Source: Rhizobium brockwellii
GTDB taxonomy: Bacteria; Pseudomonadota; Alphaproteobacteria; Rhizobiales; Rhizobiaceae
Assembly (NCBI RefSeq): GCF_000769405.2
Contig: NZ_CP053439.1
Location: forward strand, 2,976,001 to 3,040,000
Reading direction: 5' to 3'
Length of the DNA stretch: 64,000 nt
Shown: positions 1-29,790 of the stretch, one piece after another
Layout: every line of letters begins with the position of its first letter
Position numbering within the stretch: position 1 is the stretch's first letter
Position numbers and translations under genes: made by a program
Notes under the pieces: generated by a model
Databases searched by the model: none
Told to the model about the DNA's origin: nothing
What the model saw: the letters and a program-made list of their open reading frames with translations, nothing else

Positions 1-589
1 CTTTCGCACCGATAGCGCCCAGCAGCGCGAGGAAGGCCAAAGACGCGGTTGCAACGGTATAGATCAGCACCGAGGCGGGCGAAAGTACCACCATGAGCAG
101 GGGTAATGCGGCCCCCACCCCAAACGTGACGGCCGACGTCAAGGCCGCCTCAACCGGCCGGGCCGCCATGTGTTCGACGATACCGAGTTCGTCGCGCGAA
201 TGCGCGTCGAGAGCATCATTAGCGGTCAGTTGGATCGCGACTTGCCTGGCCAGCTCGTCGGTAAGACCGCGTTTGACGTAGATCTGCTTTAGCTCCTCGT
301 ACTCAGCTTCGGGTTGCGTCTCCAACTCGATCCGTTCTCGCGCGAGATCGGCTTCCTCGGTGTCCGCTTGGGAGCTCACCGACACGTATTCGCCGGCCGC
401 CATGGACATTGCGCCCGCGACCAGACCAGCGACGCCTGCTACCAGGATCTGCGAGGGTCCGGCGGACGCGGTAGCGACGCCCATGATCAAGCTCGCCGTC
501 GAGACGATTCCATCGTTTGCGCCGAGGACGGCAGCCCGTAGCCAGCCGATGCGGGAGACCAAGTGATGTTCCGAATGCAGTCTGCTCAT
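1..589 (-). CDS. VIT1/CCC1-family membrane protein, 3' end outside window
   Basis: Reading leftward from ATG 587-589 gives a protein starting MSRLHSEHHLVSRIGWLRAA, followed by the VIT-family signature GANDGIVSTASLIMGV and then AGAMSMAAGEYVSVSSQAD. A soluble charged stretch (about residues 75-125) and further hydrophobic segments come before the window edge. VIT/CCC1 proteins move Fe(II) or Mn(II) out of the cytosol. GGAG lies 6-7 nt before the ATG. It starts 46 bp after the amino-acid permease stop on the same strand, so the two probably form one operon driven from the FixK box at 1948. The C-terminus is cut by the window edge. Family assignment is strong; the metal is not determined. Confidence 0.85.
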   Translation of the reverse strand, partial: MSRLHSEHHLVSRIGWLRAAVLGANDGIVSTASLIMGVATASAGPSQILVAGVAGLVAGAMSMAAGEYVSVSSQADTEEADLARERIELETQPEAEYEELKQIYVKRGLTDELARQVAIQLTANDALDAHSRDELGIVEHMAARPVEAALTSAVTFGVGAALPLLMVVLSPASVLIYTVATASLAFLALLGAIGAK

Positions 590-634
590 GCGCGTCTCCA
601 GGACAAAGTCGATTTTGACGTAGTGAGTGCGAGA

Positions 635-1903
635 TCAACCGATGAGCGCAACGTCGATCACGAGCAACGCGGCACTCGCGATCACACCTGCGACGGGCAC
701 CCAGAACGGGCAAATGAATACACCCGGAGGCAGCGCTATGGTCTCGGTCATCTTTATGCGGATCAGCGCCAGGTTTACCAAAGTGAACAGCCCCAAAGTG
801 CACTGCGATGTCAGCTTGGCGAGACCTTCGAGCGGTACGAAGATAGCAAACACAAGGATCGCCGTAGCCCCGATCAAAGTGGCGACGATCGGCGTTCCCG
901 TGTGAGGGTTCAGGCGTCCGAGCACCTGGGGGAGGTTTCCCTGTTGGACCAGGCCGTAGATCACCCGAGAGATCATAATCATGTGCACGATGATCCCGTT
1001 TAACGTCGCGATGATCGCGATCGCACTCATGGTCACGAGCGGCATGCCCGTCAGGCGTTCAAAGACGAGTGCGAGCGGCGCGGGCGACCTTGCCAGTTCG
1101 TCCGGAGGAACAGTGACCACAGCGACCCATGTGACGCCGGCATAGATGACGGCAGTCAGCCCTAACGTCACGAAGAGCGCGCGAGGCAGAGTCTTCGACG
1201 GCGTCTTCATCTCTTCGGCAATGTTGACCAGGTGTTCGAAGCCGATGAAGGAGAACACCGCAATCATGGCGGTACCGAACACGCCGACCCAGGCCGTGGG
1301 ATTGCCGCCGGGCCATGCCTCCGGCAGGCGTTCGATCAGGCCAACACCTTCGGAGAACCCCGCTCCGACGATGAGGAGCAGACCACCGACCTCGATGAGC
1401 GTCATAACACCTGCGAAAGTGATCGAGCTGGCTGTCGCCAGGCATGAAATAGCAGCCATTGTCAGCACGACGCCGGCGATGATCGAGGATCCAGGAAGCG
1501 GAAGGAGGACGCCTACATATCCAGCACTACCAGCGCTGATCGTCGCTGCCGAGATGATCGCCGTCACGATGACCAGCAACCCGGTCAAGATCGTGAACCA
1601 TCGCAGTCTAAATGCCCTGTCGACATAGGCGGCTTCACTTGCGCTGACGGGCATTCGCGTGCCGAGTTCCGCAAACGAGGCCGCGCTCAAGCCCATGACT
1701 GCGGCGGCACCCAGGAACGCAAGCGGTGCATGCATGCCCGCCCGCCCGGCGGCGACGCCGACGAGCACGTAAATACCCGCGCCTATGGTGACGCCGAGAC
1801 CGTACAGGACGGCGTGCGACAGGGTTAGCGTGCGTGCTAGTCTCGGCCGTATCCCGGCGGCTTCGGCGGTCGTTGAATTCACTTCGCGCTCCCATTGTCG
1901 CAA
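635..1903 (-). CDS. APC-superfamily amino acid permease
   Basis: A 422-aa polytopic membrane protein with the APC entry signature TLSHAVLYGLGVTIGAGIYVLVG in its first helix region and roughly 11-12 hydrophobic segments. It resembles cationic-amino-acid-type permeases. The start is the TTG at 1901-1903, because a strong AGGAGG sits 6 nt upstream; a GTG seven codons later is an alternative. A perfect FixK box lies 45 bp upstream of this start, and the VIT-family gene follows. Substrate cannot be told from sequence. Uptake of amino acids under low oxygen is an inference from the promoter. Confidence 0.85.
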   Translation of the reverse strand: MRQWEREVNSTTAEAAGIRPRLARTLTLSHAVLYGLGVTIGAGIYVLVGVAAGRAGMHAPLAFLGAAAVMGLSAASFAELGTRMPVSASEAAYVDRAFRLRWFTILTGLLVIVTAIISAATISAGSAGYVGVLLPLPGSSIIAGVVLTMAAISCLATASSITFAGVMTLIEVGGLLLIVGAGFSEGVGLIERLPEAWPGGNPTAWVGVFGTAMIAVFSFIGFEHLVNIAEEMKTPSKTLPRALFVTLGLTAVIYAGVTWVAVVTVPPDELARSPAPLALVFERLTGMPLVTMSAIAIIATLNGIIVHMIMISRVIYGLVQQGNLPQVLGRLNPHTGTPIVATLIGATAILVFAIFVPLEGLAKLTSQCTLGLFTLVNLALIRIKMTETIALPPGVFICPFWVPVAGVIASAALLVIDVALIG

Positions 1904-1947
1904 GCACGTCCTCCTGAATTCAATACCGGATCTCGGCCATCAAGGAT

Positions 1948-1961
1948 TTGACCACGATCAA
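1948..1961. promoter_or_regulatory. FixK/FNR box TTGACCACGATCAA
   Basis: Perfect TTGA-N6-TCAA palindrome, 45 bp upstream of the permease-VIT unit and 209 bp upstream of the universal stress gene at 2170. It matches the FNR/FixK consensus and recurs throughout the first 29 kb of the window. Confidence 0.85.
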
Positions 1962-2088
1962 CTTCCGCAGACTTCCAGTTGGAAAGGCACCGGTGTGAAC
2001 GTCCGGTTATCCTGGCGCTCTTCGAAGGAGAGGCGGAATTCTGGCACGCGGCGCCGTGCCGAGGCCAGAGAAGCCGGAGCGCCGGCAA

Positions 2089-2102
2089 TTGCGTTACATC
2101 AA
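2089..2102. promoter_or_regulatory. Variant FixK box TTGCGTTACATCAA
   Basis: One mismatch to TTGA-N6-TCAA, 68 bp upstream of the RBS-supported start of the universal stress gene at 2170. That is the spacing seen for perfect boxes elsewhere in the island, which is why I keep it despite the mismatch. Confidence 0.5.
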
Positions 2103-2169: not shown

Positions 2170-3003
2170 ATGACGGCACAATATTTTCTCCCGCTGGCAA
2201 CATATCCCGATTCAAGTTCCGGATTGATCATTTCGAACGCCGTAACGTTTGCTGGGTATTACAGCGCGCATCTTCACGCGTGCGCGCTAACAGTCGCGAT
2301 TCCGCACATCCCCAACGCATGGTCGTCTTTGCTGCTCGATACTCCGAAGATGATCGAGCATGCCGAGATTTTGAGCCGCGATCGTGCCGCAACGCTGGTT
2401 TCAGCGGCAACGAACCTCGCAGCGAGCGCCGAGGTTGAATTATCTTGTCGAACGGTGAAAACCGCCTTGCCCTTATTGCACGACACGGCAGCCACGGAAG
2501 CACGTTTTTTCGATCTGGCTATTCTCGAATGTATCGCAGACGTTCCCGATACCCGTATTGTCGCCGAAGCGGTCATATTCGGATCCGGCCGGCCGGCCAT
2601 CATCTTTCCCAAAAAGACCCTTGCGGGCCCAATCGACCATCTGGTCATCGCCTGGGACGGAAGCCGAGCCGCCGCTCGGGCCGTCAACGATGCAAACCCT
2701 TTCATTCACAAGGCCAAGCGGGTCTCGGTCCTATCTGTGACGGGCGAAAAGCCGCTGCCGGAGCCAAGCGGAGCGCACCTTGCTGAGATCCTGGTTTCGA
2801 GCGGCGTCAATGCAAGCTCAACGGCCGCTCGGTTTACTTCGTCATCCATCGGTTTGAGCATTCAGCAAACAGCACTGGAACTGGGCGCCGATATTCTGGT
2901 CATGGGAGGATTTGGACACTCGAGGTTACGCGATTTTGTCCTTGGCGGAGCAACCGATGGCGTGTTGCACGAGCCTCTTTTGCCCGTCCTCATGTCACAT
3001 TGA
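2170..3003 (+). CDS. Universal stress protein, tandem UspA domains
   Basis: 277 aa starting MTAQYFLPLATYPDSSS. The start is the ATG at 2170 rather than an earlier in-frame one, because GGAGCAGGAC precedes it and the paralogue at 22917 begins at the same place (MKPQFHLPLSTYPDASS). The N-terminal half is a degenerate Usp domain. The C-terminal half carries VIAWDGSRAAARAV and the nucleotide-binding glycine motif GGFGHSRLRDFVLGG near residues 240-255. Usp proteins bind ATP and protect cells during growth arrest. One of four usp genes in the island, preceded by a variant FixK box. Confidence 0.88.
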   Translation: MTAQYFLPLATYPDSSSGLIISNAVTFAGYYSAHLHACALTVAIPHIPNAWSSLLLDTPKMIEHAEILSRDRAATLVSAATNLAASAEVELSCRTVKTALPLLHDTAATEARFFDLAILECIADVPDTRIVAEAVIFGSGRPAIIFPKKTLAGPIDHLVIAWDGSRAAARAVNDANPFIHKAKRVSVLSVTGEKPLPEPSGAHLAEILVSSGVNASSTAARFTSSSIGLSIQQTALELGADILVMGGFGHSRLRDFVLGGATDGVLHEPLLPVLMSH

Positions 3004-3085: not shown

Positions 3086-3099
3086 TTGATATCGATCAA
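3086..3099. promoter_or_regulatory. FixK/FNR box TTGATATCGATCAA
   Basis: Perfect TTGA-N6-TCAA, 97 bp upstream of the Mg-type P-ATPase start. No other gene lies between. Confidence 0.8.
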
Positions 3100-3196
3100 G
3101 CCAGGCACCTTCGACGCGAAATACGAAGCTTGACAACCATCAATGACGTCCTCCTGGCGAAGACGATAATCGGCGAAATCACATACGGAGTTCGCC

Positions 3197-5836
3197 ATGA
3201 ATATCCCCGTTCCTCCTTCTCCTCTCCCTTCGTCCGCTTTAGAGGTCGCGATCCCTGCCTACTGGACGAGGTCGCCCTCGGAGCTCGGCGCTGCATTCGC
3301 CACGTCCCTGCAGGACGGGCTGACGACCGCCGAAGCCGAAGAACGCATGCGACGGTTCGGACCGAACTCTCTTTCCGACGAAAGCCGTGGAGGCATGCTG
3401 GCAGACTTGGCGCGCCAGTTCAAAAGTCCGCTCGTGCTCGTGCTGGTGTTCGCAGCGCTCGTCGCGGGTGGCGTCGGCGAAGTCCACGACGCCACCATCA
3501 TCGGCATCATCATTCTCGCTAGCTGCTTTCTGGGCTTTCTGCAGGAACATGGCGCGCAACGAGCGGTCGAGGCGCTGCGACAGCGAATTTCTCTCACTTC
3601 AAAGGTCCGCCGCGACGGCGCCGACAAGGTCGTGGCCGCAATCGGCATCGTACCGGGTGACCTGATCCTGCTCTCGGCCGGGAGCCTCGTGCCCGTCGAC
3701 GCAGTCGTCATCGTCGCGCAGGATCTCAACGTCAGCGAAGCGACGCTCACCGGAGAGACTTTTCCTGTAGCGAAGGCGCCCGGCGTTTCAACAAAAGACG
3801 CCGGTCTTGCAGATCGTTCCAACTGCGTGTTCACGGGAACCTCGGTTCGGAGCGGCACAGCGACTGCCCTTGCGATCGCGACCGGCCCCCGCACGGAATT
3901 CGCACGGATCGCCAGCGCCGTCGCGCGTCAGATTCCGGAAACGGAATTCGCGCGAGGTGTTCGGCATTTCGGATTTCTGATGACGCGGATCATGCTGTGC
4001 ATCGTCGTCGTCGTATTGGTGGCGAATCTTCTGCTTCACAGACCTATCGTGGACTCTCTGCTTTTCTCGCTCGCGCTCGCCGTCGGCCTGACGCCGGAAC
4101 TGCTGCCTGCGATCATCAGCGTGACGCTCGCGCGCGGCGCGCGGACGATGTCGAAGTCTGGCGTGATCGTCCGCCGCCTTGATGCAATGGAGAACCTTGG
4201 CAGCATGGACGTGCTTTGCACGGACAAGACGGGCACGCTCACCGAGGGCGTCATCCGCCTCGACAGTTGCGTCGACCCGCAGGGCGTCGTCTCGCCTGAA
4301 GTGAGGCGGCTGGCACTTCTGAATTCAGCGTTTCAATCGGGAATGAAGAACCCTCTCGACGACGCCGTGACGGCCACGATCGCGGCCGGGGAGATTTCGT
4401 CCGACGCCCGCAAGCTTGCCGAGATCCCCTACGATTTCTCGCGCAAGCGTCTATCCGTAATCGTCGGCGGAAAGGACGGGCCACCGCTGTTGATCTGCAA
4501 AGGAGCGGCCACCAACGTGATCGACGTCTGCGCCACCGTCATGACCGAGGGTCGCGAGCTGCCATTGGACAACTATGTCCGCAATCAGTTGGACGACGTC
4601 TGCCGGCAATGGGGAGAAGCAGGCATGCGCGCGCTCGCAGTCGCCACCCGGCGCATATCCGAAGCAACTCCCGAAATCTCGCGGGAAGACGAATCCGGAC
4701 TTTGCCTGCAAGGTTTCCTGCTCTTCTCAGATCCGCCGAAGGCCGACATTTCAGCCGTAGTAGCAAGCCTCGTCGAACGAGGGGTGCGGATCAAGGTGAT
4801 ATCGGGAGACAACCGATATGTCGTCCAGCATCTCGCGTCGTCGATCGGAATCGACGGTTCCCGCATGCTCACGGGGAAAGAGGTCGGCCGCATGAGCAAC
4901 GAGGCACTGTTCAGCCGTGCGGGGAAAACCGACCTGTTCGTCGAAATCGACCCAAATCAGAAGGAACGGATCGTGGCGGCCCTCCGCAAGGCCGGACACG
5001 TGGTCGGATATCTTGGAGACGGGATAAACGATGCGCCCGCCCTTCACGAGGCGGACGTCGGGATTTCGGTGGACGGCGCGGCCGACGTCGCCCGCGAGGC
5101 TGCCGACGTCGTCTTGATACGGCAGGATCTCGCGGTCCTTTCGAAAGGCGTGGACGACGGACGCAGGACCTTCACCAACACGATGAAGTACATATCGATC
5201 GCGACCAGCGCCAACTTCGGCAACATGATCAGTATGGCAGCGGCGTCGCTCGTGCTGCCATTCCTGCCGCTCCTTGCCAAGCAGATACTGTTAAACAATC
5301 TGCTGTCGGATCTGCCGGCGATGGCAATCGCCACGGACAAGGTCGATCAGGCAGACCTTCGACGTCCGCAGCGTTGGGACATCTCCCGCATCAAGAGGTT
5401 CATGCTCTGGTTCGGCCCGCTAAGTTCTCTCTTCGATCTGGCGACGTTCGTCGTCCTCCTGGCAGTGTTTTCCGCCGGACAGGACGAGTTCCGCTCCGCA
5501 TGGTTCGTTGAATCGCTAATGACGCAGTTGGCGACCATGCTCGTCATCAGGACGCCCGGTCCGATCTGGAGAAGCCGACCCAGTCCGCTGCTATTCGGCA
5601 CGGCGATCGCCGTCGGTGCGGCGGGAGTGACCATCCCCTACACCCCGGTCGGCGGGCTTTTTGGGTTCGTTCCGATCCCCCTCGAAATTCTCGCAGTGCT
5701 TTTGGGTATCACCTCGATCTACGTGACAGCTCTCGAGATCGTGAAGATCTTCTACTTTACGACGCTGTCAAGGGAGGACCATTCACGGCCCCAAGCGTCG
5801 CGCCGTCGGCCCCGCACTCGAACAAGGCGCCGTTGA
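3197..5836 (+). CDS. mgtA: Magnesium-type (P3B) P-type ATPase
   Basis: 879 aa, the usual size for MgtA/MgtB Mg(II) importers. It shows an N-terminal cation-ATPase domain (GLTTAEAEERMRRFGPN), the actuator motif LTGET, phosphorylation site CTDKTGTLTEG with the acceptor Asp near residue 343, hinge motif GDGINDAP near 615, and a C-terminal membrane bundle (about residues 680-850). The ATG at 3197 has GGAG 7 nt upstream. It stands alone on the plus strand and ends convergent with the ABC-type membrane gene. The last 20 residues are Arg-rich and probably unstructured. Cation specificity is by family resemblance. Confidence 0.88.
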   Translation: MNIPVPPSPLPSSALEVAIPAYWTRSPSELGAAFATSLQDGLTTAEAEERMRRFGPNSLSDESRGGMLADLARQFKSPLVLVLVFAALVAGGVGEVHDATIIGIIILASCFLGFLQEHGAQRAVEALRQRISLTSKVRRDGADKVVAAIGIVPGDLILLSAGSLVPVDAVVIVAQDLNVSEATLTGETFPVAKAPGVSTKDAGLADRSNCVFTGTSVRSGTATALAIATGPRTEFARIASAVARQIPETEFARGVRHFGFLMTRIMLCIVVVVLVANLLLHRPIVDSLLFSLALAVGLTPELLPAIISVTLARGARTMSKSGVIVRRLDAMENLGSMDVLCTDKTGTLTEGVIRLDSCVDPQGVVSPEVRRLALLNSAFQSGMKNPLDDAVTATIAAGEISSDARKLAEIPYDFSRKRLSVIVGGKDGPPLLICKGAATNVIDVCATVMTEGRELPLDNYVRNQLDDVCRQWGEAGMRALAVATRRISEATPEISREDESGLCLQGFLLFSDPPKADISAVVASLVERGVRIKVISGDNRYVVQHLASSIGIDGSRMLTGKEVGRMSNEALFSRAGKTDLFVEIDPNQKERIVAALRKAGHVVGYLGDGINDAPALHEADVGISVDGAADVAREAADVVLIRQDLAVLSKGVDDGRRTFTNTMKYISIATSANFGNMISMAAASLVLPFLPLLAKQILLNNLLSDLPAMAIATDKVDQADLRRPQRWDISRIKRFMLWFGPLSSLFDLATFVVLLAVFSAGQDEFRSAWFVESLMTQLATMLVIRTPGPIWRSRPSPLLFGTAIAVGAAGVTIPYTPVGGLFGFVPIPLEILAVLLGITSIYVTALEIVKIFYFTTLSREDHSRPQASRRRPRTRTRRR

Positions 5837-5884: not shown

Positions 5885-6886
5885 TCATATTTCGTGGTTG
5901 CCAGCGCCATCGAACTTCGCGGCGTCCCTGATTAGCCGGAACTTCACCTGGGTCACCCTGAGGTCACGATACCAGTCCACGATCGCCCCCCAAGGGTCGA
6001 CGATCTTCGCCAGTCCCGAGACGAAGGCGACCACGGTGCCTATCTCGGTCTTGCCGGTGACAACATAATATCCCCCCAGGACGAAAATGCCGACATAGCC
6101 CAGTTGCGCCATGAGATTCATGAGAAAGTTCATGGCGTACTTGTAGCGGTAGATCTCCATGTTGGCGGCGAAGATCGCTCCGATGCGCGAAGTCTGAGGA
6201 TCCTCATCCTGGCCACCTTCGATCGCATGCACCATGCCTTCGCTGACGTCGCGCATGATGGCGACCTTCGCCTCGACCCGGCGGTTGATCGCGGCCTGCA
6301 ACATTGGGACGAACGCAATCTGCGGGGCGAAGGTCGCTGCGACGGCCAGCATCATCAGCGGCTGGAGATAGATCAGATAACTGCCGACGGTGACAAGGAT
6401 GCCGATCTGCAGCAGCGGCTCGGAGATGCTGGTCCCAACGAAACCGCCCACCGGTTCTGCTTCCGCAAGGACGATCGACAGCTCGACGCCTTCGAGCATG
6501 GATTCTGATGGCGGCGTCTCGGCCCGATGCAGAACACGCGCCCGCAGCCAGAGCGTGCCCTTCTCGCCCACCCAGCTTCTGTAGAGATTGAGGGCGAATT
6601 TTATCGCGCCCTCCAACACTGCCACCGCGAGATAGAGGGATACGAGGAAAAGAAGCGACCCGTATGACGCTTGCTGGGTCGCCTCATTGACGATCCGGCG
6701 CTGGAGTTCGAGAGGCGCCGCGCCTATGATAAACAGAACCAGGGACAGCCCGGCGATCAACGCCTGATGACGCCTTCCCATCAGCCAGATGAAACCGAAC
6801 AGTTGGGAGGGCATCGAATCCGCCGCGCTTCCGGTCTTTTGCGAGACGCGGCCGGGCAATTCAATCCTGGAGGGCCAAATGTTCAT
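5885..6886 (-). CDS. ABC-exporter-type membrane domain without ATPase
   Basis: 333 aa with about six hydrophobic segments arranged like the type I ABC exporter membrane domain (QLFGFIWLMGRRHQALIAG, then GGYYVVTGKTEIGTVVAFVSGLAKIVDPWG). No Walker A, signature or Walker B motif follows; the protein stops soon after the last helix. It is the last gene of a unit CBS-BON, small membrane protein, this gene, presumably run from the FixK box at 7806. Either it partners with an ATPase encoded elsewhere or it has become a non-transporting membrane protein. The start at 6886 has a weak RBS; ATG 6814 is possible. Confidence 0.7.
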   Translation of the reverse strand: MNIWPSRIELPGRVSQKTGSAADSMPSQLFGFIWLMGRRHQALIAGLSLVLFIIGAAPLELQRRIVNEATQQASYGSLLFLVSLYLAVAVLEGAIKFALNLYRSWVGEKGTLWLRARVLHRAETPPSESMLEGVELSIVLAEAEPVGGFVGTSISEPLLQIGILVTVGSYLIYLQPLMMLAVAATFAPQIAFVPMLQAAINRRVEAKVAIMRDVSEGMVHAIEGGQDEDPQTSRIGAIFAANMEIYRYKYAMNFLMNLMAQLGYVGIFVLGGYYVVTGKTEIGTVVAFVSGLAKIVDPWGAIVDWYRDLRVTQVKFRLIRDAAKFDGAGNHEI

Positions 6887-7088: not shown

Positions 7089-7751
7089 TCATGCGGAAGC
7101 CAGGGTGATCTTGTTCACCACGCCGCCGACGCCGCGGACGCTTTCCGCCGCCACCCTGGCCGCTGAGCGCTCCAGCTCCGTCTCGACCTCTCCCCTCAGG
7201 GTGACCACCCCGTTGGAGACGGTCGCATTGACCATGGGGGGCGTTATTTCGAGCTCGGCTTCCAGGCGGCTACGAACGGCGGTCCATAGGGCCTCGTCGC
7301 CGGAAGCGGTGCACTGTCGTGGAACATCGAGAAGCGCTCGCATCAAGTCGCGACGGCTGATCATTCCGGCGAGCCTGCCGTTCTCGACGACAGGCAGGTG
7401 TTTGATGTCGTGGGCCTGCAGGAGTTCCGCGAGCTGGCTCGCGGTGGCGGTCGGGGCGGCGCTGATGACAGGCGTCGACATCACGTCCTTGACGCGCCAG
7501 CTTCGCGCCTTCACATAGTCCGCCAGTGCATCTTCGCGGTCGCGCGTATGCGGTACCGCCCGTCTCGCCCAAGACGACGCCACCCGGCGCAGCAGGTCTC
7601 CCTCGGTGACGATGCCCGTGAGCCGCCTTTCGCCATCGACGACGGGCACCGCGCCGATCTTGCTGGCGTTGACGATCTCGACGGCTTCCCTGACGTTGTG
7701 TCCCTCGTCGAGCGTCGTCACGGGGGTCGTCATGATGTCTCTAGCAAGCAT
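7089..7751 (-). CDS. CBS-pair and BON domain protein
   Basis: 220 aa from ATG 7751, chosen because AAGGAG lies 8 nt upstream. CBS1 (about residues 1-55) reads MTTPVTTLDEGHNVREAVEI and IGAVPVVDGERRLTGIVTEGDLL. CBS2 (about 82-140) reads KDVMSTPVISAAPTATASQL and HLPVVENGRLAGMISRRDLM. A C-terminal BON domain (about 150-217) contains GVVTLRGEVE. CBS pairs sense adenine nucleotides; BON domains are usually envelope-associated, but no signal peptide is present. Similar CBS proteins belong to the mycobacterial dormancy regulon (Hrp1). A perfect FixK box lies 55 bp upstream. Confidence 0.88.
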   Translation of the reverse strand: MLARDIMTTPVTTLDEGHNVREAVEIVNASKIGAVPVVDGERRLTGIVTEGDLLRRVASSWARRAVPHTRDREDALADYVKARSWRVKDVMSTPVISAAPTATASQLAELLQAHDIKHLPVVENGRLAGMISRRDLMRALLDVPRQCTASGDEALWTAVRSRLEAELEITPPMVNATVSNGVVTLRGEVETELERSAARVAAESVRGVGGVVNKITLASA

Positions 7752-7805: not shown

Positions 7806-7819
7806 TTGACGTGGATCAA
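7806..7819. promoter_or_regulatory. FixK/FNR box TTGACGTGGATCAA
   Basis: Perfect palindrome between the divergent CBS-BON gene (55 bp) and the type III polyketide synthase (177 bp). The spacing favours the CBS-BON operon; control of the polyketide synthase is possible but less certain. Confidence 0.85.
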
Positions 7820-21106: not shown

Positions 21107-21120
21107 TTGATGCTCGTCAA
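21107..21120. promoter_or_regulatory. FixK/FNR box TTGATGCTCGTCAA
   Basis: Perfect palindrome 68 bp upstream of the 99-aa gene at 21189. The two boxes are 23 bp apart centre to centre, so each divergent gene has one site at the usual distance. Confidence 0.88.
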
Positions 21121-21188: not shown

Positions 21189-21488
21189 ATGCGCGAACAA
21201 GAAAAGACCCGCAAGGCAGCAACCGACATAGCCACGACCATTCCTCCAGTCGAGCGAACGTCCGCAGACCTTGTTCTCGAACGTCGGGACGAGGATCGCT
21301 GGGAGGTGACGGCGGCCACGCCGCGAGGCCAGGCGTGGGCGAGAGACCATTTCTGCTGCGCGCTCCGGCAATCCTTCACTGGCACCATGTGTCTCGACAT
21401 CATGAGCGCCGATCGGCTTCTCAAGGAAGCGCATGACGATGGACTGACCACCGAGTTCGTCAGCCTGTCTGGAAAGGACATATACTGA
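21189..21488 (+). CDS. Hypothetical protein, 99 aa, FixK-controlled
   Basis: Starts MREQEKTRKAATDIATTIPP after AAAGGAGACGGAC. The middle reads WEVTAATPRGQAWARDHFCC and the C-terminus SADRLLKEAHDDGL. It may be a small alpha/beta protein, but I do not recognise a family. One base separates it from the downstream single-domain universal stress gene, so they form one unit behind the box at 21107. Confidence 0.7.
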   Translation: MREQEKTRKAATDIATTIPPVERTSADLVLERRDEDRWEVTAATPRGQAWARDHFCCALRQSFTGTMCLDIMSADRLLKEAHDDGLTTEFVSLSGKDIY

Positions 21489-21489
21489 C

Positions 21490-21900
21490 ATGTTCGCCAC
21501 AGTCGTCTGCGCCATCGGCCGAGGATCCCGGCAACGCATGCTCCAGCTCGTCGAAACGGCCCGCGCGCAGCTCGCGCCCAACGGAAGCCTCCACCTCATT
21601 CACGCGGTGGAGGGCCTGCCCTCGTCGGCATCGCCGGACGATTGGGCGGTCGAGGTGATGGCCGCTGCCGAGACCAGACTTTCGGAAGCCCTGCGGTCGA
21701 CCGGCACTCCTGCTTCGATACACGTCCGGGCGGGCAACCCGTCGCAGCTCATCGTCGCCATCGCGAAGGAGATCGCCGCCGATCTCGTCTTGATCGCCTC
21801 TCACCGGGACGACGTGCTCGACCGGGTCTTCGGCTCAGTCGTGGACCATGTCGTGCAGCGCGCACCATGCTCCGTACTCGTCTTGCGAACGACCCGGTGA
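21490..21900 (+). CDS. Universal stress protein, single domain
   Basis: 136 aa: N-terminal strand MFATVVCAIGRGSRQRMLQL, and C-terminal nucleotide-binding and closing strands in LVLIASHRDDVLDRVFGSVV followed by APCSVLVL. This is the typical single UspA size. The ATP-binding glycines are only partly kept (R-DDVLDRVFGS in place of G-GRHG), so ATP binding is doubtful. Cotranscribed with the 99-aa protein. Confidence 0.85.
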   Translation: MFATVVCAIGRGSRQRMLQLVETARAQLAPNGSLHLIHAVEGLPSSASPDDWAVEVMAAAETRLSEALRSTGTPASIHVRAGNPSQLIVAIAKEIAADLVLIASHRDDVLDRVFGSVVDHVVQRAPCSVLVLRTTR

Positions 21901-21910: not shown

Positions 21911-22282
21911 TCAAACAACCGTCTTCGCTTCAGCCTCCCTGACCTGACCGGCGGCGGCGTCTCGATACAGTTCGGCGGCCTGCGACAACGTTCGTGACCC
22001 GGCCTCGCACAGCCGCGCCACCTCCCTGGGATACTCCTCTAGCTCGCTCTCAACGTAGTCCGAAAGGACCTCGACAGCATCACTGTTGTCAATACTACAG
22101 ACAAGTCGAGCCAGGAAATCGAAGTATCGGAGCCCCCGTCGCGCGGCGGACGCCGTCAAATCCGTGGTGACCCTCACCGACGCGGCGCAGATCTCGTCTT
22201 GAAACAGGAACCCCGTGCGAACAATGGGCGCGAGGTTGGCGTTCAGCGTGGCGCTGCGATGCAGGCTGGGGGGATATGGCAT
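21911..22282 (-). CDS. Hypothetical helical protein, 123 aa
   Basis: Starts MPYPPSLHRSATLNANLAPI; ATG 22282 is set by AAGGAG 8 nt upstream. The rest is predicted mostly helical (GLRYFDFLARLVCSIDNSDA, ESELEEYPREVARLCEAG), with a heptad-like pattern slightly reminiscent of phasins, but no firm match. It follows the PNPOx-like gene by 46 bp on the same strand, so likely the second gene of that FixK-type unit. Confidence 0.65.
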   Translation of the reverse strand: MPYPPSLHRSATLNANLAPIVRTGFLFQDEICAASVRVTTDLTASAARRGLRYFDFLARLVCSIDNSDAVEVLSDYVESELEEYPREVARLCEAGSRTLSQAAELYRDAAAGQVREAEAKTVV

Positions 22283-22328: not shown

Positions 22329-22787
22329 TCACTCCGTTCTGACTGCGCTCCGTCCCGACACGGCCGTGACGGCAATGCCGTAGAAGACGTGAGGAGAACC
22401 ATCGAGCATTGGGACCTCGTGGGGCTTCATGGAGCCGATCTCCCACCAGTCCGAATACTTTTGGAGAAGCGACCACGCATGGAGCCTTTCGCTTCGTCGC
22501 GCGTCGCTGTCCGGAAACTCCTCGAACCGACCGTCGACGACGACGCTTTTCCAACCGCCGGCGGCAGGACGCTGCTCGACGTGAAGGCAGACCTTGTCGT
22601 TCCCCCGCATCCAGTCGAGCTTCTTGCCAGGCATGGTGAAGCTATAGGCAACGCCGCTGGAGAAGGCGAAGTAGATTGCCGCCACGTAGGGCTGGCCATC
22701 CTTGCAGCATGCGAGATGACCGAAGCGCTCGTTCTCAAGGATCCGGTAACACTCACCGGGGTTGATCTCCGTCAGCTTGATCGTCAT
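22329..22787 (-). CDS. PNPOx-like flavin-binding split-barrel protein
   Basis: 152 aa from ATG 22787 (GGAG upstream); the frame stays open far upstream without an RBS. Typical motifs: ECYRILENERFGHLACCKDG, QPYVAAIYFAFSSGVAYSFT, GKKLDWMRGNDKVCLHVE, WKSVVVDGRFEEFPD. This is the pyridoxamine-phosphate-oxidase-like family (also called NimA-like), which binds FMN or F420. Such proteins recur in hypoxia and dormancy regulons. Substrate unknown. A one-mismatch FixK box lies 60 bp upstream, shared with the divergent stress gene. Confidence 0.82.
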   Translation of the reverse strand: MTIKLTEINPGECYRILENERFGHLACCKDGQPYVAAIYFAFSSGVAYSFTMPGKKLDWMRGNDKVCLHVEQRPAAGGWKSVVVDGRFEEFPDSDARRSERLHAWSLLQKYSDWWEIGSMKPHEVPMLDGSPHVFYGIAVTAVSGRSAVRTE

Positions 22788-22846: not shown

Positions 22847-22860
22847 TTGACAAAGCGCAA
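22847..22860. promoter_or_regulatory. Variant FixK box TTGACAAAGCGCAA
   Basis: TTGA-N6-GCAA, one mismatch, centred between the PNPOx-like gene (60 bp) and the universal stress gene (57 bp). The symmetric placement supports function for both. Confidence 0.65.
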
Positions 22861-22916: not shown

Positions 22917-23738
22917 ATGAAGCCGCAGTTCCATCTTCCTTTGTCGACCTATCCCGACGCGAGTTCCTTCGCCATAATCGACAATGCTATTGGCCTCGCT
23001 AGGCAGAATGACGCCCATCTCGTCGCCAGTATCCCGCAAGTCCGGATCCCCCAGGTCCATCCGCCCTTTCCCACCGTTATCGATGTCGAGACATGGCGAG
23101 GACAAGCAGAGCGGTATAGCCGGGACAGCGGGACTTCGCTGCGGGAACACGTCGCCGACGCTATTTCGGAAACTGGCTTCGAGGTGCGAATCCACGGATT
23201 CGAGGTCAGGGAACCGTTCGTCTATGAACGCTTTTCTGAAATTGCCAAGTGCTACGACCTTTCCATCGTCGAAGCCTCCGAGCTCTCCCGACAACTCCCC
23301 GAAACGCTGCTATTCGGAAGCGGCCGTCCGCTCGTGCTATTTCCAGCCACCAGCGACTACTCTCGTGTGGACACGATCGCCGTCGCCTGGGACGGCAGCG
23401 CCACCGCAGCGCGCGCCCTTTCCTGCGCACGGGTCTTCATCGAACGCGCGATCAAGGTGCAGGTCATCTCGATCACCGACGACAAGGACATCGACGAGGC
23501 GAACCGCGCCCTCCTGATCTCTTCTTTGAAGCATTCGGGACTCGACGTGGATGACGTATCGATCCAGGCATTCGGCGAGACCGCGACGGCCGCCATTCAA
23601 TCGGCCGCGCTGGAACGAAAAGCAGACCTATTGGTCGCGGGCGGATTTGGCCATTCGCGGCTTCGTGAATTCATCCTCGGCGGCGTCACTCGGGAACTGC
23701 TCGTCAAGGCAGAACTGCCGGTGCTTCTCGCCCATTAG
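22917..23738 (+). CDS. Universal stress protein, tandem UspA domains
   Basis: 273 aa starting MKPQFHLPLSTYPDASSFAI, with GGAGG upstream. A close paralogue of the protein at 2170: both begin FLPLxTYPDxSS-like, and both keep VAWDGSxxAARA at the start of domain 2 and AGGFGHSRLREFILGG near the end. The latter is the ATP-binding signature. Divergent from the PNPOx-like gene and sharing its FixK-type box. Its stop overlaps the convergent P1B ATPase end by 4 nt. Confidence 0.9.
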   Translation: MKPQFHLPLSTYPDASSFAIIDNAIGLARQNDAHLVASIPQVRIPQVHPPFPTVIDVETWRGQAERYSRDSGTSLREHVADAISETGFEVRIHGFEVREPFVYERFSEIAKCYDLSIVEASELSRQLPETLLFGSGRPLVLFPATSDYSRVDTIAVAWDGSATAARALSCARVFIERAIKVQVISITDDKDIDEANRALLISSLKHSGLDVDDVSIQAFGETATAAIQSAALERKADLLVAGGFGHSRLREFILGGVTRELLVKAELPVLLAH

Positions 23739-25598
23739 AGGGCGCGAAGGGCGTTGAGAATGACCGCCACGTCGATGGCCTCCTGAAGCAATGCGCCGCC
23801 GACTGGCGGAAGGTATCCCGCTCCTGCGAACCCCATCGCGAGGAGCGAGAGACCTATGCCGGCATAGATGCTTTGAAGCGCGATCTTGCGCGAACGACGC
23901 GCAATGCCGATCGCCGTCGCTATCTTGGTGAGGTCGTCCCGGACGAGCACGATATCTGCGGCCTCCGCGGCCGCCGCAAGGTTCTCGACGCCTACCGCGA
24001 TTCCTACATCGGCTGCTGCCAGCGCTGGCGCGTCGTTCACGCCGTCGCCGACCATCAGCACTTTCCCGTGGACGCGTTCCTTTTCGATGACTGCGACTTT
24101 GTCCGCGGGAGCGAGCCTCGCCGCGACGTCGTCCAAACCCAGAGAGCGAGCTATGGCTGTCGCTATAGCCAACTCGTCACCAGAAGCCAGGACTACTCGA
24201 GAGATTCCTGCCGCCCGGAGCTGGGTGACGAGTTGGACAGCGTCTTCGCGAAGCCGGTCTTCGAGCGTGATCGTGCCAGCCGGCGTGCCGTCAAACAGTA
24301 CCTTGACACGCATTGCGCTGCCTGACCCGTTAGGCCCGGACGGCGGCGCCTCTCCGAAATAGGCGTCTCCTCCGACGCCGACGCGCACCCCCCCCGACGA
24401 TTCCGGAGATTCCGGATCCCGCGGTCTCGGTCACCTCCGATGGGCGGCTCAGTACTAACCCACGTCTATGTGCCTCGTCCACCAGCGCGCGTCCGACCAC
24501 ATGGCCCGATGCCTGGTCCAGCGAGGCGGCCAGCCGCAGGATCCTGTCCGGATGCTCCGGGCCCTCTATTACACCGACTTCCGGCTGTCCCGCAGTGAGC
24601 GTCCCCGTCTTGTCGAACACCGCTACTGTGACCTGTGCGAGGGCCTCGAGAGGTCCCGCGCCCTTCACCAGAACGCCCTCCTTGGCGGCTTTTGAAGTGC
24701 CGGCTGCAAGTGCGACGGGTACCGCCAGGATCAACGGACAGGGCGTGGCGACGACAAGCACGGCCACGATCCGTGACATGTCTCCGGACATGAATGCAGA
24801 GACTCCTGCGACCGCGATCGTGGCGACCAGGAACCAGACCGAGAAGCGGTCGGCCAGGCGCATCAGCTTCGCCTTGGAACGTCTCGATGCTTCTACGAGC
24901 CTGACTATTCCGGCATAGGTGCTGTCCTCGGCGCGGCTTAGAACGCGGATTTCGATCGCATCGCCCTCGTTCGTGGCGCCGCTCGAAATGTTGCCACCCC
25001 TGACGATTCGCACCGGGAAAGGCTCTCCGGTCAGCACCGCCTGGTCGATCGTCGCGACTTCGCCGACGAGCGCCCCGTCGGCCGGTACGACGTCGCCCTT
25101 GCGTATCAGGAGCACGTCGTCGACCGCGATCTTCTCGATCGGAATTTCTTGGAAACCGGTTCCGTCAAGCCGCATGGCCGTCCGCGGAACTTGCGCCAGC
25201 AAAGCCGACATGCCCTCGTCGGCGCGACGATGTGCGTATGCCTCCAGAAACTGACCGCCGGAATACATGAGACCGACGATCGCTCCGGCGAGATATTCGC
25301 CAAACCATAAGGAGAACCCCATGGCCAGGGCCGCGATCAGGTCCAGACCGTATTCCTCTTTCTGCAGCTTCTTGGCGATTTCAACGCAAAGAGACAGCAG
25401 ACTCAGGCTGGTGCAGCCCGCCAGGATTAACCGATATCCAGGGCCGTGACCCGCGAGATAGAAGGCGAATGCGGCCGCAAGCGCAAGCAGCGACGACAGC
25501 ACCAGAAGGCCCGACCGGGAGCCTCCTTCCCTCAGTCGCGACAGCCCGCCCTCAGGACACGTCCACCTACCAGCCCACCAAGCCGCCGCTGTAGCCAC
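23735..25598 (-). pseudogene. P1B heavy-metal ATPase, split by +1 frameshift in a G-run
   Basis: The first frame (GTG 25598) covers the membrane helices, LTGEPFPV, the metal-site helix VVATPCPLILAVP and VFDKTGTLTAG (Asp near residue 329), then turns into Arg-repeat nonsense after SGIVGGG. The second frame resumes with GGDAYFGEA and continues through MVGDGVNDAPAL to the stop at 23735. Removing one of eight G (24388-24395) rejoins a 620-aa ATPase. No N-terminal HMA domain; the TPCP metal motif is not the CPC of Cu exporters, so the metal is unclear. Follows the DksA-like gene on the same strand. Confidence 0.82.
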
Positions 25599-25626: not shown

Positions 25627-25950
25627 TCAGCGGAACGATTTTGCGCAATCGATGCAGAACGGCGTATAGGGAACCGCCGCGAGCCGCTCCTTGCCGATCG
25701 GATGGTGGCATTTGACGCATCGCCCGTATGTGCCGTCGTTCAGCCGGTCGATCGCCGCGTCGATGGCCCCGATCTGGTCGCGCCCCTCGGCTTGCATCTC
25801 GCGAAGAACCTCATCGTTTTCAACCTGGGTCGCGCGCTCCTCGCTGTCCTTCTCTAGCGCGACGCAGAGATCCGCATCGATCGCTCCGAGACGACGGACA
25901 AGGTCATCCTTCATCGTCTGCAGGACGGTCTGTACTGAGCTTTTATTCAT
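25627..25950 (-). CDS. DksA/TraR-family zinc-finger protein
   Basis: 107 aa from ATG 25950 (GGAAGG upstream). An N-terminal coiled-coil half with acidic residues (LCVALEKDSEERATQVENDE), then IDRLNDGTYGRCVKCHHPIG and the C4 zinc finger completed by FCIDCAKSF. DksA-family proteins enter the RNA polymerase secondary channel and adjust transcription during stress. Short relatives without the full coiled-coil tip are common, and their polymerase role is unproved. Perfect FixK box 140 bp upstream; the P1B ATPase follows 28 bp downstream. Confidence 0.87.
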   Translation of the reverse strand: MNKSSVQTVLQTMKDDLVRRLGAIDADLCVALEKDSEERATQVENDEVLREMQAEGRDQIGAIDAAIDRLNDGTYGRCVKCHHPIGKERLAAVPYTPFCIDCAKSFR

Positions 25951-26089: not shown

Positions 26090-26103
26090 TTGATCCCGGT
26101 CAA
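26090..26103. promoter_or_regulatory. FixK/FNR box TTGATCCCGGTCAA
   Basis: Perfect palindrome 73 bp upstream of the P2-type ATPase and 140 bp upstream of the divergent DksA-like gene. Confidence 0.86.
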
Positions 26104-26175: not shown

Positions 26176-28851
26176 ATGATGAATCTGACGGCGCAGACAC
26201 CCGCCCCCACGACGCCTGCGGTGATCGGACTGACAAGCATCGAGGCCGAGGAACGCCTCGCCGAGCTTGGACCCAACATGCTGCCCGAGCCTGAGCCCCC
26301 ATCGCCGCTGCGGGTCTTTCTCATCCAATTTCGCAATCCGATCATCTACATCCTCTTGCTGGCATCGGCGCTCTCGTTTGCGACCGGCAGGATCGAAGAC
26401 GGCCTGTTCATTCTCGTCGTGCTTCTGATCAATGCCTCCATAGGCACCTACCAGGAGTATTCTGCGGATCGAGCGGCCGCCGCCCTTCGAAGGCTCGAGC
26501 AGCCGTCGGCCAGGGTCATACGGGACGGCGTGGCTTGCAGGATCGAGGCCAAGCGGCTGGTCGTGGGCGATCTCGTTCTTCTGGAATCCGGCGACCGAAT
26601 CCCTGCCGATCTGATGCTTGTCGATGCAAGTGATCTCCGATGCGACGAGTCGCTTCTGACCGGCGAGTCGATGCCGGTCCCCAAAGGGCGAACCGTCGAA
26701 GGATCGTCGGATGAAACCGCCAGTTCCATGCTGCGCGCGGGTTCCCTGGTGACGCGCGGGCGAGCCAAGGGCGTCGTGACCGCTACGGGTACCGCGACCA
26801 TGCTTGGCGGCATCGCAGCCGAGTTGGGAAGAGCCAGTTCGTCGCAGCCCCCGCTTGTTGCCCGTCTGGCGAAGTTCACGAATGCGCTCGCGGTTTTCGT
26901 AGGATTGGCAGCTTTGGTGCTGGTCGTCGCGGGCTTCATGCGGGGCCTCCCTCTGCACGATCTTGTCATGATGTCCGTAGGTCTGGCGGTGAGCGCTGTT
27001 CCTGAAGGGCTTCCGATCGCGATCTCCGTCGCGCTCGCCGTCAGCATGCGGCGGATGGCCGCCCGCAACGTCATCGTCCGACGCATGCCGGCTGTTGAGG
27101 CCCTCGGTTCGACCACGATAATCGCCACGGATAAGACGGGGACCTTGACCAGCAACGTGCAGACGGTGACCGAAATTCGCCTGCCGGACGGCACGGACAT
27201 CGCCCTTGACGCCCATTCCGATCTCGACAAGTGCGAGATCAGGGCGAGCGGCCTGGACAGCGACCTTGTCCGCGAGAGGGCGCGCAGGCTGCTACGCGCT
27301 GCACTGCTCGCAAACGAAGGAACCCTGGCTCGCCGCGACGATCTGTGGGTCGCCGCCGGAGACACGGTCGACGTGGCGCTTCTTGCAGCAGGACGGAAGG
27401 CCGGGCTGGGACAGGAAGAGTTGAACGACCGATACCCGCTGGCGGCAAGGATCGCCTACGAGCCCGAGCACAAATACGCTGCATCCTTCCACCACGGCAG
27501 TGATCGGATTCATGTCTTCGTCAAGGGGGCGTCGGAGGTGCTCATAGAAATGTCTGATCGCATGGACTCCGCGGGAAGCGTAGTCGAAATCGACCGTGCG
27601 TCGCTTTTGGCGCAGAAGGAAGAAATGGCCGCTCGAGGCCTCAGGGTGCTCGCGTTCGCCGAAGGGGAAATCGGCGCGTCCCTCGCCGGAAGCCTCGGAC
27701 ACGGTCACCTTGTCGATCTCGTGTTCTTGGGGCTGGCCGGACTGCAGGACCCGGTCCGGCCTGAAGTGCCGAACGCTATGAAAGACTGCCACGCGGCGGG
27801 CGTGGAGGTCGTGATGGTGACCGGGGACGACCCGCGGACCGCTGCCGCGATTGCCCGAGATGCCGGCCTGAGCTTTCACGCGGGCCAGGTGGTCTCGGGC
27901 CACAACATCGATGAAGCCGCGCGAGCGGGCGACCAACGGCTGGACGAGATCACAAGAGAGGCCCGCATCTACGCCCGCGTGCAGCCAGCGCAGAAATCGG
28001 CGATCGTCGCATCCCTGATCCGCAACGGCCACATCGTCGCCGTCACCGGAGACGGTGTCAACGACGGTCCGGCGCTGAAGAAGGCGCATGTCGGCGTCGC
28101 AATGGGCCTCAGGGGAACCGAGGTGGCGAAGGAAAGCGCCGATCTCGTCGTCACGGACGACAACTTTGCATCCATCGTCGCGGGGATCGCAGAAGGCCGG
28201 GCCGCCTATCGCAACATCCGCAAGGTAGTACTGATGTCGGTCGCAACAGGCGCCGCCGAGGTCCTGCTCTTCATGCTCGCGCTGCCGTTCGGCCTGCCCA
28301 TGCCGCTCCTCCCTGTTCAGCTCTTGTGGCTCAATCTCGTGACAAACGGCATCCAGGACGTCGCGCTTGCCGGCGGCAGGCCGGAAGGAGACGAACTGGC
28401 GGGGCCGCCGCGTTCTCCGCTCGAACCTGTCCTCGACCGGACGATGATCCGGCGCGTCGTCCAATCGACGGTCGCGATCGGCGGAGCAGCATTCCTGGCG
28501 TTCCAGTGGATGATTGCGCATGGATATGGCGTTCCCGAAGCACGCAACATAACGCTTCTGATCTTCGTGATGTTCGAGAACGTCCAGACCCTGGCATGCT
28601 CCTCCGAAAGACGATCGATATTCTCCGTCGATATCCTTCGGAACCGATTCCTGCTCCTCAGCGTGCTCGCCGCCCAGACGATCCACATCTCGGCGATGTA
28701 CGTGCCGTGGCTTAGCGGAACGCTCGGCCTGTCGCCGATCACGCCTCTTGAATGGGGCCTCAGCATGCTGATCGCTAGCTCCCTCGTTCTCGTGACCGAG
28801 GTAGACAAGTTCGTCTCCCGGCGACGCCGCGATCGTTCATCCCATGCTTGA
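26176..28851 (+). CDS. P2A-type cation ATPase (SERCA/CtpF-like)
   Basis: 891 aa. N-terminal cation-ATPase domain (GLTSIEAEERLAELGPNMLP), actuator LLTGESMPV, phosphorylation motif ATDKTGTLTSN with Asp near residue 319, PEGLP in helix 4, hinge GDGVNDGPALK, and a six-helix C-terminal module with NLVTNGIQD. This matches bacterial Ca(II)/Mn(II)-type P2A pumps, including mycobacterial CtpF, which belongs to the DosR regulon. ATG 26176 and 26179 are both possible; GGAG fits the second slightly better. Its TGA stop is part of the next FixK box. Confidence 0.9.
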   Translation: MMNLTAQTPAPTTPAVIGLTSIEAEERLAELGPNMLPEPEPPSPLRVFLIQFRNPIIYILLLASALSFATGRIEDGLFILVVLLINASIGTYQEYSADRAAAALRRLEQPSARVIRDGVACRIEAKRLVVGDLVLLESGDRIPADLMLVDASDLRCDESLLTGESMPVPKGRTVEGSSDETASSMLRAGSLVTRGRAKGVVTATGTATMLGGIAAELGRASSSQPPLVARLAKFTNALAVFVGLAALVLVVAGFMRGLPLHDLVMMSVGLAVSAVPEGLPIAISVALAVSMRRMAARNVIVRRMPAVEALGSTTIIATDKTGTLTSNVQTVTEIRLPDGTDIALDAHSDLDKCEIRASGLDSDLVRERARRLLRAALLANEGTLARRDDLWVAAGDTVDVALLAAGRKAGLGQEELNDRYPLAARIAYEPEHKYAASFHHGSDRIHVFVKGASEVLIEMSDRMDSAGSVVEIDRASLLAQKEEMAARGLRVLAFAEGEIGASLAGSLGHGHLVDLVFLGLAGLQDPVRPEVPNAMKDCHAAGVEVVMVTGDDPRTAAAIARDAGLSFHAGQVVSGHNIDEAARAGDQRLDEITREARIYARVQPAQKSAIVASLIRNGHIVAVTGDGVNDGPALKKAHVGVAMGLRGTEVAKESADLVVTDDNFASIVAGIAEGRAAYRNIRKVVLMSVATGAAEVLLFMLALPFGLPMPLLPVQLLWLNLVTNGIQDVALAGGRPEGDELAGPPRSPLEPVLDRTMIRRVVQSTVAIGGAAFLAFQWMIAHGYGVPEARNITLLIFVMFENVQTLACSSERRSIFSVDILRNRFLLLSVLAAQTIHISAMYVPWLSGTLGLSPITPLEWGLSMLIASSLVLVTEVDKFVSRRRRDRSSHA

Positions 28852-28861
28852 CGAAGATCAA
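28848..28861. promoter_or_regulatory. FixK/FNR box TTGACGAAGATCAA
   Basis: Perfect palindrome that includes the stop codon of the P2A ATPase and lies 58 bp upstream of the next stress gene, giving that gene its own promoter. Confidence 0.85.
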
Positions 28862-28918
28862 AGAACGTCGCCGCAAGTGCCGTTATCCTCTCGATATTCA
28901 AAAAGAGAGGTGATCGAA

Positions 28919-29752
28919 ATGTCCATTCGCACGGTAATGAGCATCCTGACTTCCAAATATTTCGACGAAGACCTGAAGGCCGCCGTGGAGTTTTGCGGAG
29001 CCTCCGGAGCGCATCTCAGCGCGGTCGTGATCTGCATGGGCGCGTCGCCGATGATGGGAGAATACAACTCCCTGTCGACCGTCTGGCTGGAAGAACGCCA
29101 GCGCGAAATCGAGGAACTCGTCAAGAAAGCCGAAGAGATCAAGGCGTATCTCTCGCGCACCGAACTCTCCTACGATGTGCAGGACGTCTATACGGAATAT
29201 GCTTTTGCGCGGGAGGACATTGCAGAACGGGCGCTCTATGCCGACGTCGTTCTCGTCGGCCGCCAAGCGTGCAAGGACGAGGAACTCCAGAAGCGGGTCA
29301 TGGATGGCGCTCTGTTCCATACGCCGACGCCGGTCATCATCAACCGCGGACGGCGGCCGCTCTCTTCCACTTCCAAATCGATCGTACTGGCATGGGATTC
29401 GAGCGACGAGGCGTCGCGTGCCGCAAGGCAGGCCCTCGACCTGTTGAAGACGGCGGACTGCGTCTACGTGACGATGATCGATCCAGTCTCGCGAGAGCGG
29501 GTGAATGGAGAAGAACCAGGCGCCGACATCGCGAGCTTTCTGTCCCGTCACGGGGTCAAGGTTCAGGTGGATCGCGTGGCCAGCGGCGGAAACACGGCCG
29601 ACGAGGTCCTGAGGCAGCATGCGATGGACGTGAACGCCGATCTGATCGTCATGGGAGCATACAACCACCCTCGGTGGCAGCAGACGCTCTTCGGAGGCGT
29701 GACGCGCAACATGATCGAGCAAAGCAGCATGCCAATATTCATGGCGCATTGA
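28919..29752 (+). CDS. Universal stress protein, tandem UspA domains
   Basis: 277 aa from ATG 28919 (AGAGAGGTGATCGAA upstream). Domain 1 (about 1-150) ends with DVVLVGRQACKDEEL and TPTPVIIN. Domain 2 begins SIVLAWDSSDEASRAARQAL and closes with LIVMGAYNHPRWQQTLFGGV, a good ATP-binding signature. It belongs to a different subgroup from the 2170 and 22917 pair (different N-terminus, MSIRTVMSILTSKYFDEDLK). Last clear FixK-box gene on the right of the island; a terminator follows. Confidence 0.9.
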   Translation: MSIRTVMSILTSKYFDEDLKAAVEFCGASGAHLSAVVICMGASPMMGEYNSLSTVWLEERQREIEELVKKAEEIKAYLSRTELSYDVQDVYTEYAFAREDIAERALYADVVLVGRQACKDEELQKRVMDGALFHTPTPVIINRGRRPLSSTSKSIVLAWDSSDEASRAARQALDLLKTADCVYVTMIDPVSRERVNGEEPGADIASFLSRHGVKVQVDRVASGGNTADEVLRQHAMDVNADLIVMGAYNHPRWQQTLFGGVTRNMIEQSSMPIFMAH

Positions 29753-29760
29753 GGGGGAAG

Positions 29761-29790
29761 GACACGGCCGCGCTCATGCGCTGCCGTGTC
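29761..29790. terminator. Long hairpin after the last stress gene
   Basis: GACACGGC pairs with GCCGTGTC, with an inner GCGC/GCGC stem and a TCAT loop; one unpaired position on each side. It starts 8 bp after the stop codon. No T-run follows. Confidence 0.55.

Follow-up and report, generated by a model that had tools for sequence, protein, structure and literature searches.

In Burkholderia cenocepacia, the low-oxygen locus lxa combines six universal stress proteins (Usp) with an alpha-crystallin, and for this locus a FixLJ/FixK link has been suggested in a relative and a comparison with the mycobacterial DosR regulon, which has the same two protein classes under low oxygen, is in print (PMC6127331, PMC9733578). 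In Alphaproteobacteria, genome-wide prediction of FixK/FNR core regulons yielded Hsp20, a CBS protein, a zinc alcohol dehydrogenase, phosphoketolase, FixL, UspA, a heavy-metal P-type ATPase, FNR/FixK and a DnaK suppressor (Table 1 of PMC2908626); the gene content of the island considered here agrees with these regulons, which were predicted over genomes and do not form a single island. Rhizobium leguminosarum itself has a regulator cluster, cluster 3 (fxkRc-fixKc-hfixLc, RL1881-RL1879), which was stated in 2021 to have no K-box, the binding sequence of FxkR, and whose surroundings are not described as a box island in the text that we could consult (PMC7888657). Here we analyse a 64,000-nucleotide stretch of the genome of Rhizobium brockwellii (the window), which contains some 25 stress, metabolism and regulatory genes that probably make up a low-oxygen stress regulon, about 31 kb long, on the chromosome of this leguminosarum-complex Rhizobium. 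Its closest named analogue is lxa, which, compared by published description alone, differs in its 50 genes and in its host, of another class of Proteobacteria. The kind of island is already known; what is added is a K-box and the view that a box island has cluster 3 at its centre. A regulator cluster that had been published without an explanation is now placed inside a 13-box regulon, bacteroid proteins (Usp, Hsp20, phosphoketolase) are tied to one locus, and the question of why there are three FixK sets becomes directly testable.

A pattern scan of the window revealed 12 perfect anaeroboxes (TTGA-N6-TCAA), all inside positions 1948-28861 and all matching the strict form TTGAY-N4-RTCAA as well. 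The preliminary description, made from the sequence alone, had listed eleven of them, which are real and enriched, and had missed the one at 3130-3143. None of 100 dinucleotide shuffles of the window reached 12 boxes (mean 0.75). The whole genome (7,118,658 bp in 7 contigs) holds 104 perfect and 49 strict boxes, versus 22 and 6 matches for a control pattern read backwards. Two clusters, C1:2974650-3004861 with 13 and C2:407540-439837 with 12, account for 25 of the 49 strict boxes; the first consists of the 12 window boxes and a thirteenth at C1:2974650, 1.35 kb left of the window. With both clusters subtracted, the background predicts 0.33 perfect or 0.10 strict boxes per 29,790 bp against the 12 observed, which bears out the expectation of a density above the genome background. 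The Poisson probabilities of at least 12 boxes in 29,790 bp, 3e-15 (perfect) and 2e-21 (strict), refer, like the other enrichment figures, to a region whose ends were picked on account of its boxes. The form TTGAT-N4-ATCAA appeared less often in the island (3 of 13 boxes, versus 13 of 24 outside both clusters, P 0.09; P 0.001 against eight boxes of fix genes, hemA, fnrN and one neighbouring gene, which were picked afterwards); a two-tier box grammar drawn from this would be post hoc and is not claimed.

In most units the box centre is found about 45-105 bp upstream of the start. Edge-to-start distances range from 38 to 97 bp, so that the 42-81 bp given earlier was roughly right for most units. 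Centre-to-start distances of 183.5 and 146.5 bp, respectively, separate the type III polyketide synthase (PKS) and DksA genes from their shared boxes. The claim that boxes precede almost every unit holds for most of them, but the window scan found none near fxkRc, the fixKc-hfixLc operon and an open reading frame (ORF) for an ABC-membrane protein at 5885-6886. The annotation of the relative from R. leguminosarum ATCC 14479 backs most starts; for Usp1, MgtA, Adh and the permease we chose the start ourselves. Class II FNR-type promoters have their box centred at -41.5. In 22 promoters a TANNNT-like signal was detected 29.5 bp from the box centre, the best of 81 offsets (z 5.3, score 36/66, full match in 5 promoters), and this is where it would stand for a box with its centre at -41.5; the set comprised 16 window promoters and 6 selected from the 12 boxes of C2, and the A+T profile of a near-identical set had been viewed beforehand. 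The fixN and fixG promoters gave no full TANNNT match at this offset. As a statistical signal, the anaeroboxes before most units are located like class II activator sites. In a comparison of 16 boxes with up to seven relatives, from which unaligned pairs were dropped, half-sites were conserved at 662 of 664 aligned positions, spacers at 489 of 498 (98%) and flanks at 8882 of 9824 (90%), a count that includes the alignment of box 3086 in locus L116, which probably represents a paralogous box with identical sequence.

The centre of the island is occupied by an OmpR-type regulator (FxkRc), a FixK-type regulator (FixKc) and a hybrid FixL (hFixLc), all with open frames and their domains. The FxkRc ortholog of ATCC 14479 is 61% identical to the copy in the C2 cluster. 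hFixLc has a receiver domain and, by its match to FixL, a predicted haem-PAS domain. The translation of FixKc has no cysteine near the N-terminus and matches FixK2 best, which assigns it to the FixK and not the FnrN type. It shares 47% and 38% identity with the pair of FixK proteins encoded in the C2 cluster, values identical to those reported for fixKc against fixK9b and fixK9a in strain Rlv3841 (PMC7888657). FixKc-like proteins at E 1e-80 or better occur in 10 of 148 searched genomes of the genus, the own genome included. A FixK tree, with 10 of 16 inner branches open and a bootstrap that had not converged, left the branch order unsettled and was not used. By published gene numbers, cluster 3 and RL1883 are the same genes in the same order. 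In genome G001, whose coordinates match strain 3841, the FixKc gene (1976353-1977084) lies 27 bp from the published fixKc transcription start site (TSS) at 1977111 (PMC7888657), and is flanked by Hsp20, DegP, Usp, ATPase and ackA genes; the 40 kb extracted there contain 10 perfect boxes.

FxkR binds GTTACA-N4-GTTACA (PMC7888657, PMC4999443). Between fxkRc and fixKc we found GTTACG-GATT-GTTACA, which matches at all but one of 12 positions, in a promoter free of perfect anaeroboxes. The form GTTACR-N4-GTTACA occurs at two places in the 7.1-Mb genome, here and before fixK9a, and in both promoters 27 bp separate the K-box from a shared CATTCCGGTG motif. G001 carries an identical 16-base site. Its proximal edge is 63 bp away from the fixKc TSS given in print and falls 7 bp inside the published TSS of fxkRc, a placing that takes the published positions as those of proximal edges; measured from its centre, the site lies at -70.5. 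The K-boxes of the fixK9a and fixK9b promoters, which were judged functional, were placed at -62 and that of fxkR9 at +6 (PMC7888657). Among 22 loci, which are related and not independent, 21 have the K-box with at most one mismatch, including those of Bosea, Ensifer and Sinorhizobium meliloti pSymA, and one has two mismatches. In 19 distinct rows, 10 of the 12 half-site columns were at least 94% conserved against an average of 72% for other intergenic columns, and the best-conserved 12-column intergenic windows were the K-box and its one-base shift. By place and conservation the fixKc promoter has a K-box, a predicted FxkR site, contrary to the statement of 2021, which the one-mismatch site calls into question. 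FxkR sites had been predicted before 10 operons, perhaps including fixKc (PMC4999443). Our literature searches showed no report of the fixKc K-box or of the whole box island, though one may exist.

Published expression data reach the island through its Hsp20 gene. Its box centres lie at -87.5 and -143.5 from the start, the positions reported for rlv_1399 of strain UPM791, which is induced about 50-fold under microaerobic conditions and stays at basal level in an fnrN1 fnrN2 strain; RL1883 is more than 400-fold up in pea bacteroids (PMC11784457). On plasmid pRlvB of UPM791 the genes from CBS to Usp3 follow the same order, except that phosphoketolase takes the place of the type III PKS and that Usp2 lacks an annotation. 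Judged by the number and length of the genes, RLV_1384 would be Usp3, RLV_1399 Hsp20 and RLV_1404 the phosphoketolase; all three were reported in pea bacteroids at 2.0 to 2.2 times the lentil level, and two of them appear in the printed list of abundant bacteroid proteins (PMC7950203). The targets named at the outset are supported as members of a conserved low-oxygen box regulon with hFixL, FxkR and FixK genes of its own.

We consider it likely that the island possesses an oxygen cascade of its own and that FnrN uses the same boxes. Falling oxygen would lead hFixLc to phosphorylate FxkRc, which would bind the K-box and drive fixKc-hfixLc, closing a positive loop. Through the box that they all recognise, FixKc, FnrN and the plasmid FixK proteins would activate chaperone, protease, Usp, BON/CBS, ion-ATPase and fermentative genes. 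FnrN would probably be the main activator in nodules, and the local cascade would respond earlier, at moderate microoxia. More tentatively, and in our judgement with less than even chances, the third and supposedly idle FixK set of R. leguminosarum could be a working, self-amplifying private oxygen circuit dedicated to the island, travelling with it as one module between chromosomal and plasmid locations and set to an oxygen level unlike that of FnrN.

Several observations weigh against a local cascade acting on these boxes. Boxes with one mismatch, four of which had been noted (2089, 12532, 13494, 22847), do exist, but as a class they are not enriched (14 in the window versus about 15 expected), and the four therefore rest on position and conservation; three further sites in the same 30 kb (2797, 7076, 22762) had been left unlisted, and 2797 and 22762, both in coding sequence, are conserved as well. 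The fixKc K-box departs from the consensus at one position, and the consensus with one mismatch is found at 4 places in the genome versus 13 for its backward control, so that the case for the K-box rests on place and conservation; on the genome scale the rarity of such a site does not suffice, but its occurrence by chance in the given 122-bp gap is unlikely. Although UPM791 possesses both the local cascade and an identical K-box, its Hsp20 depends on FnrN. Loss of hfixLc in Rlv3841 lowered fixNOQP9 alone, to 71%, and neither fixKc (1.6-fold) nor fxkRc (1.3-fold) was significantly up in bacteroids (PMC7888657). Nitrogen fixation in pea was normal for an RL1883 mutant of 3841 (PMC11784457). No assay of an island promoter in a fixKc or hfixLc mutant was found in the literature accessible to us.

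The alternative readings are not mutually exclusive. The one that survives best, though we think it rather unlikely, is that FnrN (and plasmid FixK9) account for all activation of the island and fxkRc-fixKc-hfixLc is an inactive or minor passenger, as implied in 2021. The FnrN dependence of RLV_1399, the small effect of hfixLc loss and the lack of a significant fixKc change in bacteroids agree with it, as do two fnrN-like genes in this genome that have an identical pair of boxes at a distance of 32 bp (C1:2387994/2388026 and C6:55703/55735), an arrangement as published for autoregulated fnrN. A K-box that is conserved and sits where functional K-boxes do, and three regulator genes with open frames and domains present, are hard to reconcile with a passenger. 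Conversely, FixKc might be the main, dedicated activator, in keeping with the K-box and with a regulator that adjoins its targets here, in relatives and in pSymA; we regard this as improbable, given that the Hsp20 promoter of UPM791, which has FixKc, depends on FnrN. That FixK is the activator, as first proposed, is not established: FnrN shares the box, and the one island promoter for which we found a published test, that of the Hsp20 ortholog, is FnrN-dependent.

Equally improbable, in our view, is a DosR-like dormancy programme of non-growing cells. The DosR regulon differs from the island in regulator family and operator. The gene classes do resemble each other, but the parallel suggested for this locus had already been drawn for lxa (PMC6127331); the regulators of the island are of Crp/Fnr and OmpR type, with none of DosR type among them (the DosR operator was not searched for), and dormancy, as proposed in the preliminary description, finds no support where three proteins of the UPM791 copy are reported in pea bacteroids, two of them as abundant (PMC7950203). 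That the boxes are non-regulatory leftovers of duplication or chance, as the identical sequences of boxes 21084 and 26090 might hint, is very improbable in view of the class II spacing, the conservation, the tested Hsp20 promoter and the differing spacers of the other window boxes.

Comparison with relatives (80 loci for box counts, 17 of them for gene content) showed that the regulator set and its targets are neighbours there and in S. meliloti 1021 pSymA. The 600-649 kb region of pSymA, taken from a record that carried no annotation, has 12 perfect boxes (7 strict), FxkR-FixK-hFixL with a perfect K-box, and Hsp20, DegP, beta-CASP, Usp, PNPOx, BON and P-type ATPase genes; it differs in protein identities of 35-64%, in gene order and in being on the symbiotic plasmid. 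In the same genome as the island, the C2 cluster carries hFixL, two FixK, an FxkR paralogue, ccoN/fixN (by model match) and genes reading as other fix genes and hemA, together with relatives of Usp3 (61% identity), PNPOx (59%), beta-CASP (64%) and its 117-aa partner (38%), Usp1 (47%), CBS (41%) and Adh (32%). The idea of an island without classical fix genes, assembled independently, is weakened by these related genes in C2 and pSymA, and independent assembly away from fix genes is rejected as stated because relatives of island genes stand beside fixN in C2. Since several sister islands are on plasmids (L101, L115, L116, L129), the island seems to move between replicons.

Sister islands also vary in content. 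In L116 and L129 (UPM791 pRlvB) the neighbour of ackA is phosphoketolase instead of the type III PKS found in the window, and L114 (R. etli CFN42 p42d) is a reduced island without FxkR, FixKc, Hsp20 and beta-CASP, with Adh in two pieces and five boxes left. A sigma-70 gene in the window (56738-58795), whose product has all the sigma-70 regions, fits a chromosomal place.

Features of the island, in window coordinates
Feature	Position	Strand	Basis or remark
APC-family permease	635-1855	-	Pfam AA_permease_2; box 1948 upstream, centre 99.5 bp from start
Perfect anaerobox	1948-1961	+	aligned and conserved in 2/7 relatives (L115, L004)
One-mismatch box before Usp1	2089-2102	+	conserved in 2/7 relatives
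Usp1, universal stress protein	2170-3003	+	Pfam Usp; L115 relative annotated 17 codons longer
Perfect anaerobox, distal, MgtA	3086-3099	+	pattern scan
Perfect anaerobox, proximal, MgtA	3130-3143	+	pattern scan
Mg-type P-type ATPase (MgtA)	3197-5836	+	NCBIfam TIGR01524 above cut-off
CBS-CBS-BON protein	7089-7733	-	Pfam CBS, BON; start by orthology
Perfect anaerobox, CBS-BON gene / type III PKS gap	7806-7819	+	scan, relatives alignment
Type III polyketide synthase-like protein	7996-9048	+	Pfam Chal_sti_synt
Acetate/propionate kinase (ackA), two frames in assembly	9267-10440	-	
117-aa protein, unknown family	10433-10786	-	adjoins beta-CASP gene here and in C2 cluster
MBL beta-CASP (RNase-like) protein	10767-12401	-	Pfam Beta-Casp, RMMBL
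Perfect anaerobox, beta-CASP/ackA operon	12454-12467	+	scan, relatives alignment
One-mismatch box before BON1 remnant	12532-12545	+	scan, relatives alignment
BON protein remnant (BON1)	12584-12712	+	residues 2-43 of 215 matched
Hsp20, ortholog of RLV_1399/RL1883	12848-13357	-	Pfam HSP20; same place in UPM791 pRlvB
Perfect anaerobox, Hsp20	13438-13451	+	scan, relatives alignment
One-mismatch box, Hsp20 / 147-aa protein gap	13494-13507	+	scan, relatives alignment
147-aa protein	13564-14007	+	no Pfam/NCBIfam match
FxkRc, OmpR-type response regulator	13970-14713	-	Pfam
K-box GTTACG-GATT-GTTACA, predicted FxkR site, fixKc-hfixLc promoter	14731-14746	+	
FixKc, Crp/Fnr regulator	14836-15570	+	FixK2 closest solved relative
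hFixLc, hybrid histidine kinase	15548-17467	+	FixL-type PAS and receiver
Triple BON protein	17810-18457	-	Pfam
Perfect anaerobox	18516-18529	+	kept in 7/7 relatives
DegP-like protease	18582-19937	-	Pfam Trypsin_2, PDZ
Perfect anaerobox	20015-20028	+	half-sites kept in 7/7 relatives
Zinc alcohol dehydrogenase (Adh)	20041-21042	-	Pfam ADH_N
Perfect anaerobox	21084-21097	+	kept in 7/7 relatives
Perfect anaerobox	21107-21120	+	half-sites kept in 7/7 relatives
99-aa protein	21189-21488	+	no NCBIfam match
Short universal stress protein	21538-21900	+	L101 ortholog annotated so
123-aa protein	21911-22282	-	no family match
PNPOx-like flavoprotein	22329-22787	-	Pfam Pyridox_ox_2
One-mismatch box, PNPOx / Usp2 gap	22847-22860	+	perfect box in G001 ortholog
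Usp2, universal stress protein	22917-23738	+	Pfam
Heavy-metal P-type ATPase, two frames in assembly	23735-25598	-	
DksA/TraR-like protein	25627-25950	-	Pfam
Perfect anaerobox	26090-26103	+	scan, relatives alignment
P-type ATPase	26176-28851	+	best model Ca-type, under that model's cut-off
Perfect anaerobox	28848-28861	+	scan, relatives alignment
Usp3, universal stress protein	28919-29752	+	Pfam

The frame splits of ackA (around 10165) and the heavy-metal ATPase (around 24395) are length differences in runs of C, and both genes are intact in several relatives; either assembly error or real decay may account for them. The BON1 remnant looks like a real loss. For the 117-aa protein, the longer ORF gave no Pfam match, and there was no NCBIfam match. 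Directly to the right of the island, TauE, DUF6691/YeeE and Blh-type genes (29974-33248) are found, as also in L115 and L116. Further on, a CHAT-domain protein of 1298 aa is encoded near a CHASE2 protein (33945-40093), possibly as a signalling or defence set.

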